Assembly: GCF_040954835.1 (NCBI RefSeq)
Contig: NC_090709.1
Span: forward strand, 44,524,490 to 44,588,489
Source of the DNA: Lepisosteus oculatus
Taxonomy: Eukaryota > Chordata > Actinopteri > Semionotiformes > Lepisosteidae
DNA length: 64,000 nucleotides
Reading direction: 5' to 3'
The notes under the pieces are model-generated. The model was not told the origin of the DNA. It made no database searches and worked only from the letters and a program-made list of their open reading frames with translations. Below, in pieces: positions 47,301 through 53,300 of this stretch; the stretch's first letter is position 1; every line of letters starts with the position of its first letter. The translations under genes and the position numbers were made by a program.

Positions 47301-50300
47301 AGTCTAGCAGCACAGTGACTGTGTGTGAGATACTGGTGAGTCTAGCAGCACAGTGACTGTATGTGAGATACTGGAGAGTCTAGCACACAGTGACTGTGTG
47401 TGAGATACTGGAGAGCCTAGCAGCACAGTGACTGTGTGTGAGATACTGGAGAGTCTATCAGCACAGTGACTGTGTGTGAGATACTAGAGAGTCTAGCACA
47501 CAGTGACTGTGTGTGAGATACTGGTGAGTCTAGCAGTACAGTGACTGTGTGAGATACTGGTGAGTCTAGCAGCACAGTGACTGTATGTGAGATACTGGAG
47601 AGTCTAGCACACAGTGACTGTGTGTGAGATACTGGAGAGTCTAGCAGCACAGTGACTGTGTGTGAGATACTGGTGAGTCTAGCAGCACAGTGACTGTATG
47701 TGAGATACTGGAGAGTCTAGCACACAGTGACTGTGTGAGAGATACTGGAGAGTCTAGCACACAGTGACTGTGTGTGAGATACTGGTGAGTCTAGCAGCAC
47801 AGTGACTGTGTGTGAGATACTGGAGAGTCTAGCACACTGACTGTGTGTGAGATACTGGAGAGTCTAGCACACAGTGACTGTGTGTGAGATACTGGAGAGT
47901 CTAGCAGCACAGTGACAGTGTGTGAGATACTGGAGAGTCTAGCAGCACAGTGAGTGTGTGTGAGATACTGGAGAGTCTAGCACACAGTGACTGTGTGTGA
48001 GATACTGGAGAGTCTAGCAGCACAGTGACAGTGTGTGAGATACTGGAGAGTCTAGCAGCACAGTGAGTGTGTGTGAGATACTGGAGAGTCTAGCACACAG
48101 TGATTGTGTGTGAGATACTGGAGAGTCTAGCAGAACAGTGACTGTGTGTGAGATACTGGAGAGTCTAGCAGCACAGTGACTGTGTGTGAGATACTGGAAA
48201 GTCTAGCAGCACAGTAGTGTGTGTGAGATACTGGAGAGTCTAGCAGCACAGTAGTGTGTGTGAGATACTGGAGAGTCTAGCAGCACAGTGACTGTGTGTG
48301 AGATACTGGAGAGTCTAGCACAGTGACTGTGTGTGAGATACTGGAGAGTCTAGCACACAGTGACTGTGTGTGAAATACTGGAGAGTCTAGCACACAGTGA
48401 CTGTGTGTGAAACATTGGAGAGAGCATGCTATTCTGTGCTTGTAGGGAACTTGGGTTTCCAGGTACCTCAGTTAGAAACATCTTTCCTGATAACGGTGCA
48501 TTTTATGGATAGGGATATAGGCTCCCATTAATCTTGTGGCTTCCAGAGAGAGAGGGAGAGAAATCTAACTGCAGGTTACCTTTTATTTAAACGACATTAA
48601 GAGTTTAATGCATAGTGAAGAAAGATACAAGATGTGAAGAAGGGGTTAACTGCTTTTTTTTTGCACAAGGACTTGACTTCTTGTGACCCATGACATTCCA
48701 GGCTTTAAGTTATGTCAGGAATGGGGGTTAACTGATAAGAATTCCAGATGCCAGCTAGAACCCCCCCCCCAACGAAGGAAACATAAAACTGACCATTAAG
48801 AGTGGTCAAAGCCTGGGGGACTGTCCGAACACCGTGACCTCTCCCCATTACCATGGAAACGAAGTACGACAGAAGCGGACATTTCGTGCTATATAAACCC
48901 GAAGTTTTGTACTTGTATTTTGAACAATACTTCAGTCTTATTGTTCCTTGCATGCAATAAACTCGCTTGTTTAAACTTAGTCTCAGGTTCCAGAACTTAT
49001 TTGGCTGTTAAGTCAGTAGAAACAGTCAAGGGTTTTCTGGGTGAGCAGAATGTTAGGCCTCTGAAATGCCTTGTCTGTAAATACTGTATATAAAGTAGCA
49101 TGTTTTGTTGTGTGTTGTGTCATTGTTTTAAACTATGAGTCCTACCCCATTTGTAACAATATAATGTAACTTTGTGTGTTGTATGTTTTGTGTCTTATGT
49201 AGTTTATGGTAATAAATATTTGTTTAACTATGTGTGCCTAAATTATTGCTCTTCTCAACAAGCTGTGCTGGAGAACAAAGTATTCACATTCCTCTAATTA
49301 TACCAGCCACTTGGGTGTAGAATTGACTTACAAGGCGGGGGTTATGAATAATTATTTCACTGATCAACTAAACCACTTGTCTATTCCTGTTTTTTACCAG
49401 TTTCATAACCTCCTATCTGTAACAATAACAATAATTTGTTTCTAGCCTTTACCTGTCTGCATCTTATTAGTCAATGCACAGCAAGGCTAATTAGTCAAGG
49501 CTCAATTTCATACACAGCACATTCCTTATGAACCAGTTATTTTTATTTTTTTCTGCTTATCCACTGGGATGTGAAGTTGTTCTGAGACTTCCGGATAAGT
49601 AATTACAAATTAAAGCCCTAGAAAAATTGGGAGAATAAGATTCCACACCCTTTAGTAATAGGAATTGTAAATTTGTGCTGATGTAACCATTTGCTTTCCT
49701 AATTACAGTGTCCAAGTTAGTTGTTTTTTTAAGCTCCAACTGTATTCAATTGTTGTGATTCTGATTATTTCAAAATAAAATAGTTGTTCCTCTTCATCTT
49801 AAAGCACAGTCCCAATCATCTTTGGAATTTGGTATGTTGTGGGAAAAGGCTGCTAAGGCTGCTGAAAGAAGGATAGTCTTTAGAGGAGATATTTAGGGGC
49901 TGGGATGTTTTTTTACCCTTTGTGTTTCTTTTTAAAAAGAAGGCAAGCTGTCAGCTGATGTTGCAGTGACAACTGTGATTCTCACTTAAGAGTGGAAAGG
50001 ATGCCGAAGATGTCAGACTGAGTACATCTCTCAAGGAAAGTTCTGACAGAAGGACCTGTATGTTTCGGTACAGGAGGTGAATTATTTAATTCTGTCTGGA
50101 TATAGTTTCACTTTGGCTGCCTGCTCAGCCTGCTTTAGTCAGACCTCCTGGCTCCAGTCTGCTTCTACCAGGGCAGTGCAACAGGTATCACAATATGAAC
50201 GTTAAACTAATAAAAAAAGACAGCAAATTGACCAAATGGTTCCTACCTGAGCAAAGCAGGGACACTTCCTGTCCAGCACCACAGTTGACTCTCTGTGGAG

Positions 50301-53300
50301 AACTGCAGTTCACCAGGTGAGACTCGTCCCCAGAGCATTGAATACCTGTCAGACACACATCACTGTCACTGTCCTATACAGAGAGTAATTACAGACTTGT
50401 ACTACAGAGCACTGAATACCTGTCAGACACACAGCACTGTCACTGTCAAATACAGAGAGGAGTTATAGACTTGTACTACAGAGCACTGAATACCTGTCAG
50501 ACACACAGCACTGTCACTGTCCCATACAGAGAGGAGTTATAGACTTGTCCTACAGAGCACTGAATACCTGTCAGACACACAGCACTGTCACTGTCCCATA
50601 CAGAGAGGAGTTATAGACTTGTCCTACAGAGCACTGAATACCTGTCAGACACACAGCACTGTCGCCAGTCTCATACACAGAGTTCTGGTGTATTTGTACT
50701 AAAGAGCCACAGCCCAGCTGTCTGCAGACCACAGAGGCCTCTCTGTAGCCCCAGGAGTGCTGGATGAGTCTCGCCCAGGTCCTGTTGTAGTGAACTTCTA
50801 CCAGGCCATCACAGTGACTCTCTCCTCCTGACAGCCGGACTCCACCGTCTACAGCTGACAGGGAGGAATCTATAAAAATTAATAATCATGTTAATTTTCA
50901 GTCACACATTAGTAAAATAAAACAAACTCACAGAGGGGTTATCAGAAATATTTTTTGTTTGTACAATTAACTTGATACACCACAGCTTATTATGTCACAA
51001 CATACTGTAGTGTTTTAAAAATAGTCATCATAATTTTATGAATGGTCTTGCTTAAGAAGTTTGCTAGGAGATCAAATTCTAATATCACACTTACTCTCTC
51101 TTCTAATACTATAAATATATAAATATTCACTGGCTGACAACAGCTCTAGTTTCTAGGAGGGTTGTGACAGCAGTGGGTAGGTGAGCTCAGCCCACACGTG
51201 GGGAGATGGGGGTTGGTTACCGGCCAGCACCTCAACAGGTGACTAGGACATTAAACGAGCACAACCTGCAGTGTGGACATCTGTGGCAGAAAGGGCTGTG
51301 AATGAGGAATGTGAATGTGGACTGACTTGTGTGTTCAGTTACACAGGGTGGGTGGAGCTGGAATTAGCTCCAGGGCTCCTATAAAACAGCATGAAGAGGT
51401 GGGTAATGGAAGGAAAATAGAAAGCAGATAAGGATGGAATAAGTGGATGGATCTTGGGATTACAGTTGTGCTGGAGCTTTGCGGAGGTTAGGGCAGTTTG
51501 AAAAGTGAGGAATGTTTGGTGATTCTGGTAAGAAGGCTGCTTTTAATGGCATTCTGAACAGTAGGTCTACTGTGGCTGGCTTGGAGACCAAGACCATGTA
51601 AATGGATTTGGTTACTTCATGAGTAAGTGGGACAGATTAAGATTTGACATCTTACTGATCCGTTATTTAAAGCTGTATTAATTCTGAAAATGTAAATATG
51701 TGTTGATTCTTACTAGAACAAATGACTCCAGCTTCCTGCCCATGAGAGCATGCAGCTCTGCCCCATGAAGAGAGAGCACACCAGGAGAGATGGGTCTCAT
51801 TGCTGTGACACTCAAAAACATTAACCCCTCTTGATCCATTGTCCTGTCCAAACCAGGCTTGTCCTGGAACTGCTACAGCCTCCCTACAGCCCAGCTGCTG
51901 GCAGAGAACAGTGGCGTCTCTCAGGTCCCAGTACTGGTCACACACTGTCCTGTATTCACCGCGGTACTGCAGCTCCACCCAGCCAGAACAGGAGTCAGGG
52001 CCACCCACCAGCCTGTAGGCACTGTATTCTGCAGACAGGACAGGCGAGTCAGGAGCTGTACAATATTAACATCACTCTAGTCTTTATACAAAGGACTGAG
52101 GACTCAGGAGCTATACAGCATAAACACACTGTTATCTTTATAAAAAGACAGGGGAGTCAGGAGCTCTACAGTATGAACACAATGTCATAATGATTGATTT
52201 TACAGTGTGTTGATTGTAGAATAACTTCTCATAATTATACATACTTATTGAATATTTAAGTTCAATACACAAGAGTAATTAATTATCTTTCGCACTGTGA
52301 CAAAGATGAGTCAAGCAATGTGGAAATCACATGACCACAAGACCACTGCCTGCTGCAGCTCACTGACTGATCCAAAGATATTAGTCTGGGGCACAATATA
52401 CAGTGCCCTGAGATACAACAGACAAGAAAATAAAAAAATCTAAAAAGTGACAAAATGTATTCTAAAGAGGAAGAACATGCTAAATAAAATAAAAATCAGA
52501 ATTATTTGTCCTTACGTATTTGATTAAACCAGATGATGGTGCTGTAGAACAGACAATGTTATCAAAGATAAGTGGGCAAAGCTATAAGGAAGAGATGTAA
52601 TTAGCCGACACTGCTCAGAGTGAGACATTGATGTGTTTAGCTGCAGATCAATTCAGACAGCAGTGCTCTCACCTGTACAGACCAGGCTGATGTCATTGCT
52701 GTGAGAGCAGCTCAGAGTGAGATATTGAAGTGTTTATACAGCTGGGGATTAGTACAGACAACAGTGCTCTCACCTGTACACACCAGGCTGATGTCACTGC
52801 TGTGAGTGCAGCTCTGATGCTCCCTGGTTGAGGTGGGACAGTTGTGGATTCTGGTCTCATTTCCCTGACACTGGATCTCCTCTGTCCTGATCAGCCCCTG
52901 CCCCTCTCCGAAATGAGCCCCTCTCAGCAGCTGTGCTGGAAATCCACAGTCTAGTTCACGACAAACGACCTCCGCGTCCTTCATCTCAAAGTCGGCCTCA
53001 CAGATCGTACCCCAGGATGGCCCTCGCAGGACCTCGACTCTGCCAGAGCAGAGACTTCTGCCTCCTGCTAACCGCACTCCTGACATGTGACAAAGGTGGA
53101 GTCAGAGGATTTATACAAAATTAAATAGTATTACAGCACATTGCAGTGCACTTAATACAGTATATCAAAGTAAAATTAATCCAGAGAAATGAAAATGTTT
53201 AGATTATCTGTATTCGTTTTTAATCCTAATCTTAAAAGACCTTAAAATCATCATTTGCATTCAATCTAAAAGTTTGAGAAGTATTTCAATTTGCTTGGTC

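Follow-up and report, generated by a model that had tools for sequence, protein, structure and literature searches.

How does an exon come to be interrupted by tandem repeats, and can such an array be an intron? The question is raised by a stretch of 64,000 nucleotides (the window, C14:44524490-44588489) from the 1.2-Gb genome of Lepisosteus oculatus, whose right part carries exons for SRCR domains on the minus strand. One of these, here called exon A, is split by exactly four 74-bp units. As set out below, the array is very probably a young spliceosomal intron that was created by tandem duplication of its own exon, a reading that is drawn from the DNA sequence of this and related copies.

Structure of the split exon

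Exon A (50247-50869, minus strand) and its sister copy within the window consist of the following parts.

50642..50869, minus strand: exon A first half, 228 nt, with an acceptor AG at 50871-50870
50346..50641, minus strand: array of four exact 74-bp units, the proposed intron, with the first GT at 50641-50640 and the last AG at 50347-50346
50247..50345, minus strand: exon A second half, 99 nt, followed by exon A's own donor GTAGGAAC
59152..59379, minus strand: sister exon A first half, with the same sequence as in the first copy, within an 8.5-kb segmental duplication
58708..59151, minus strand: sister exon A array, six exact 74-bp units, from Tandem Repeats Finder (TRF) and reading of the joints
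58609..58707, minus strand: sister exon A second half, from sequence comparison

The original prediction, made from the window alone, described an exon split by exactly 4 x 74 bp with ACAG|GTATTC at the joints, and this proved correct for all five joints of the array, which TRF detects at 50331-50682 with a period of 74 and 94% matches. It also held that removal of the array would leave a canonical SRCR domain in frame. When the sequence from the first GT to the last AG is taken out, 228 nt (or 213 nt, if an alternative AG lying 15 nt further into the exon is used) join in frame to 99 nt, and the joined protein scores 74.7 bits against the Pfam SRCR family across 95 residues, as that claim requires. 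Among solved structures, its best matches are CD163-type (M130) and related SRCR proteins. The unspliced frame reaches 55.3 bits and meets a stop within the first unit.

The sister exon A (58609-59379) lies 8.5 kb from the first copy, and both of its exon halves are identical to those of the first; the long aligned stretches of the segmental duplication are 97.1 and 98.2% identical. Neither this second copy with its six units nor the dozens of others on the same contig figured in the original prediction.

Copies along the contig

Three queries were run against the genome, namely the split exon, its first half and the joined flanks; of their 67, 67 and 78 candidates, 40 were scored in each case. 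All exon A matches listed lie on C14, between 2.5 and 57.2 Mb of a 60-Mb contig, and the counts are lower bounds. At least about 53 places are known among these matches, including eight recognised only by a second half and a last unit, which amounts to a chromosome-wide spread of one SRCR receptor family. We read 45 copies, in the order of a first 40, then L065, L082, L083 and L084, and then L085; 43 have arrays and two (L084 and L085) have none.

Array length among the first 40 copies is 74 bp in seven, 142 or 148 bp in ten, 222 bp in six, 518 bp in three and 592 bp in one, with single arrays of 197, 271, 296, 370, 432, 433 and 444 bp, the 433-bp array (L011) including 63 nt of left-over exon. 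The remaining six arrays, of 648 to 1097 bp, have foreign DNA inserted. Leaving insertions aside, unit number thus runs from 1 to 8 (74 to 592 nt). The unrelated DNA found inside array units comprises about 0.6 kb in L003 and an insert of about 0.43 kb common to L034, L035, L044-L046, L082 and L083, the last two having 648-bp arrays with the same insert; in L065 an insertion of more than 1.4 kb lies in the first unit, and the reading stopped short of the second half.

Unit number differs between copies whose exons are identical (L001/L002, L013/L024 and L005/L008), as expected of intron sequence, and this supports the earlier proposal that extra units were added later by growth as a minisatellite. 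Sequence rich in tandem repeats and segmental duplications is difficult to assemble, and five of the first 40 copies are exact repetitions of another, so that one might suspect the arrays or their unit numbers to be assembly artefacts. The same 40 copies, however, include 35 distinct versions with unit-specific substitutions and insertions, scattered across the 60-Mb contig, and we give an artefact practically no weight.

Origin of the 74-bp unit

The unit consists of GTATTCAGT, then GCTCTG, then 59 nt that match the end of the first half-exon. Its resemblance to the exon across the joint, which the original prediction had pointed out and proposed to check by alignment, is confirmed: the local alignment score against the first half-exon is 61 in the window copy and 75 in the sister copy L040, where the best of 1000 dinucleotide-preserving shuffles gave 30 and 33, respectively. 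The short right-hand exon piece alone scores 27, a value equalled by two of 1000 shuffles in each case. The limits of the duplicated segment are marked in the window copy by two similar sites, found by pattern search.

50702..50707, minus strand: left duplication site in the exon, GCTCTT in the window copy
50331..50336, minus strand: right duplication site in the exon, GCTCTG in the window copy

Of 39 copies tabulated (L011 excluded), the pattern located the left site in 29 and failed in 10. It reads GCTCTG in 13, GCTCAG in 14 and GCTCTT in two, and its distance to the end of the half-exon is 66 nt in all 29. The right site is GCTCTG in 26 of the 39 copies and starts 9 nt inside the second half, which gives a source segment of 75 nt, or 25 codons, in frame; the 74-bp unit is this segment minus one nucleotide. 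That the two sites matched over 6 bp at the time of duplication we can only infer, because both vary among the copies. The 74-nt form is also present in L043, the most divergent copy, and the deletion therefore predates the separation of the copies.

The unit is exon-derived throughout, and the array lies inside a domain exon, not across an existing exon-intron border. An introner or other transposon-derived intron was considered and rejected on account of this exon origin and because, within the window, matches to the unit longer than 25 nt are confined to the exon A copies. Another possibility is that an older intron already occupied the site and was overrun by repeats that had started at its border, as in the border minisatellites of amphioxus, in which case duplication did not create the intron. 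Neighbouring SRCR exons of the window do have tandem repeats across their own borders. In the one-unit copies, however, the entire 74-nt interruption is a single exon-derived unit and nothing else, and the other SRCR exon types of the window, as well as the loci that tblastn reads across the site, are unsplit at the same place, which makes an older intron very unlikely. The claim that tandem duplication of an AGGT-bearing exon segment gave rise to the intron is thus supported, seven of the first 40 copies still retaining a single unit.

Evidence for splicing

The first GT and the last AG are kept in all 40 of the first copies, and in 35 of 35 distinct ones. If the array is retained, a stop precedes the second half-exon in every one of 38 copies tested (L011 and L026 left out). 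With the halves joined, a script finds no stop in 36 of 40 copies, and the frame is clean in 35; L042 has no stop when joined, yet is frame-shifted in its second half. The joined exons of L011, L026 and L033 are damaged, and in L043, which has lost residues, the joined-frame stop apparently falls past the exon end when inspected by eye.

The ratio of nonsynonymous to synonymous differences per site (pN/pS) was estimated from 27 distinct sequences, without L011, L026, L033, L042 and L043. The whole exon gives 0.38 and its first half 0.43; for the second half, with its 33 codons, the value is 0.31 (95% confidence interval 0.15-0.61; two of 2000 bootstraps at 1 or above). This shows that purifying selection acts on both half-exons, the second included. 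Such constraint would be unexpected beyond a stop, and the array is therefore probably removed by splicing, so that frames and selection lend indirect support to the splicing originally proposed.

Several observations weigh against this reading. The donor is weak, with a predicted U1 pairing of -7.7 (own donor of exon A, -10.8; consensus, -14.3), and 26% of the 512 AGGT sites in the window pair with U1 at least as well. The acceptor tract holds 8 or 9 pyrimidines in 16 positions (five copies), compared with 9 to 11 at exon A's own acceptor. The end joints are better kept than the internal joints, as expected, but the difference is not significant, the dinucleotides being lost at none of 140 ends and at 8 of 146 internal positions (P = 0.056). 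Finally, the copies are related, and neither the pN/pS values nor the joint tests and counts are independent. The weakness of the array's splice sites need not be fatal, because the part of PMC10809524 considered here reports weaker motifs at AGGT sites that act as donor and acceptor alike than at sites with a single use. A minor-class (U12) intron was considered but not adopted as an explanation.

These weak sites would also suit a different explanation, in which the array simply ruins exon A, the exon being skipped or lying in decaying genes, and the joined frame is intact by chance, the copies having duplicated only recently. As the length of exon A is a multiple of 3, its omission would leave the reading frame unchanged, and damage is seen in four of 40 copies (L011, L026, L033 and L042), in the lost residues of L043 and in the broken copy L084 described below. 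A clean joined frame in 35 of 40 copies and purifying selection on both halves, the second among them, nevertheless speak for a used exon, and we consider ruin of the exon unlikely.

Internal joints might serve as splice sites as well; AGGT is intact at 67 of 73 internal joints in the 35 distinct copies and lost at six, two of these losses being inherited in common with another copy. The original prediction had accordingly envisaged isoforms with repeated domain pieces. These are unlikely, because the consensus unit, read in the exon frame, ends in TGA, and a kept unit would truncate the protein; in L031 the first unit lacks this stop, and the reading terminates in the second. The same evidence led us to reject a coding repeat, that is, a variable protein repeat retained in the mRNA. 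The starting 75-nt duplication would indeed have been in frame, but the 74-nt unit shifts the frame and none of the 38 copies tested reads through to its second half-exon, so that this alternative is barely credible.

Probable gain and loss of the array

Trees of the copies place L043, which is split by two units, apart from all other copies. They were rooted at the midpoint, with L043 on a long branch; should this root hold, the intron predates the sampled family. The two copies that have no array bear on the direction of change. In L084 the half-exon ends in unit-type sequence, the 1-nt deletion included. This copy was rejected as an ancestral unsplit exon, its half-exon end fitting the unit better than the exon (alignment score 534 vs. 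521) and its reading frame being broken; such features would follow from recombination of the exon with the last unit on the upstream side of the 1-nt difference.

L085 is open across the former site and has the exon-type length, with one unit-type base (GGTGAC), an end expected either from exchange at that spot or from a single C-to-T change. As an unsplit exon in frame, it could in principle be ancestral, which would add to the points against gain of the intron by duplication. It is nested among the split copies (support 81/86), and shows an in-frame deletion of 12 nt and the loss of a conserved cysteine. Both L084 and L085 look like secondary collapses, not ancestors, with moderate support in the case of L085.

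Proposed mechanism

We propose that the intron arose when a 75-nt in-frame exon segment between GCTCTG-like sites, with CAG|GT within it, was duplicated in tandem, and that the duplication itself would have supplied both the GT donor and the AG acceptor. Loss of one nucleotide (75 to 74), a difference seen in the sequences and presumably later than the duplication, would have locked in splicing, the full domain being made only if the piece is removed. The SRCR gene would then have spread along one chromosome with the intron aboard. The repeats may allow unit number to rise and fall, within the 1 to 8 found, and occasionally to collapse to zero, presumably the direction taken in the two array-free copies. 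Splicing would be expected to run from the first GT to the last AG; the AG|GT joints within the array may be used as intermediate steps or may compete with these end sites, and a retained unit would as a rule truncate the protein.

A broader proposal, to which we give even credence, is that the family displays the whole life cycle of one spliceosomal intron within one genome. Duplication of the 75 nt would at first have done no harm, with or without splicing, until the 1-nt deletion made splicing obligatory. The resulting 74-nt intron may have travelled with a spreading immune-receptor family and turned into a minisatellite of 1 to 8 units that bears splice sites. It could be erased when the exon recombines with the last unit, which would either break the exon (L084) or restore it precisely (L085), depending on the side of the 1-nt difference on which the exchange falls.

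Neighbouring repeats in the window

Tandem duplications also span the borders of other SRCR exons in the window. On the acceptor side of exon B (52039-52185) a 53-bp unit occurs 2.7 times across the border, on the donor side of exon C (52613-52814) a 101-bp unit occurs twice, with the donor sequence in both copies, and on the acceptor side of exon C2 (43845-43997) a 60-bp unit occurs 2.5 times. By analogy, these border duplications are much like the mirages of amphioxus. Clustering of minisatellites at the SRCR exons of the window is not significant (7 of 13 exons touched vs. a mean of 4.7 under shifting, P = 0.08), and three of the seven are segmental duplicates of others. A minisatellite with a different consensus, also of 74-bp period, recurs in the SRCR repeats (44014-44244, 53607-53759 and 62108-62328), and at 46488-48422, between SRCR exons, a 38-bp unit repeated about 52 times forms a 1.9-kb array.

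Comparison with known systems

Human introns from tandem arrays were reportedly described by Zhuo in 2007. For the papers cited below, the comparison concerns the parts considered here. The Rogers model derives introns from tandem duplication of exon sequence, and a vertebrate case of it is ATP2A1 (Hellsten 2011, as told in PMC4974935 and PMC3443670). The array in exon A shares with it an exon-derived intron, AG|GT at both ends and a coding sequence unchanged after removal; it differs in having 1 to 8 units over dozens of paralogues and a visible frame-locking 1-nt deletion, and in that its splicing is deduced. In fission yeast, two genes have introns made of 24-nt tandem repeats, with AGGC sites and available expressed sequence tags (PMC3629103). 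Both cases show several units in tandem that derive from the exon and have cryptic splice sites where they meet, whereas ours is a vertebrate-type gene family with 74-nt units, known from sequence alone.

Dual-specific splice sites in AGGT tandem repeats are found in human UBC and VCX3A (PMC10809524). There, as in exon A, the AGGT of a joint is potentially usable as donor or acceptor and intron length is a multiple of the unit, and arrays of both kinds are a proposed route to new introns. Unlike that of UBC, which has a length divisible by 3 and encodes ubiquitin, the exon A unit has 74 nt and carries a stop. The amphioxus mirage minisatellites, which sit at exon-intron borders (PMC3087553), resemble the exon A array as genic minisatellites with AG/GT joints, variable unit number and, perhaps, end units that escape homogenisation. 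They span an existing border, whereas the exon A array lies within an exon, and exons B, C and C2 are the more mirage-like. Human segmental duplications likewise carry variable internal tandem repeats (PMC2812944), whose unit number differs between recent paralogues and alters exon or intron length; in contrast to the part of that work considered, exon A offers a series of copies of one intron derived from its own exon.

An SRCR intron of this kind was not described in the titles and abstract starts of the open-licence literature searched. The mechanism is already known; the unusual point is that a series from 0 to 8 units can be followed within a single gene family and a single genome, with the source segment and the frame lock in view. 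The insertion of introns is, according to PMC3151243, a very rare event in vertebrates, and for most reported intron gains the source sequence is unknown (PMC4974935). The exon A intron still shows where its sequence came from, where the breaks probably lay, how many units it holds and what locks the frame, and its dozens of close natural versions, with 1 to 8 units, could be used to quantify the influence of intron length and of repeated AG|GT sites on splicing.

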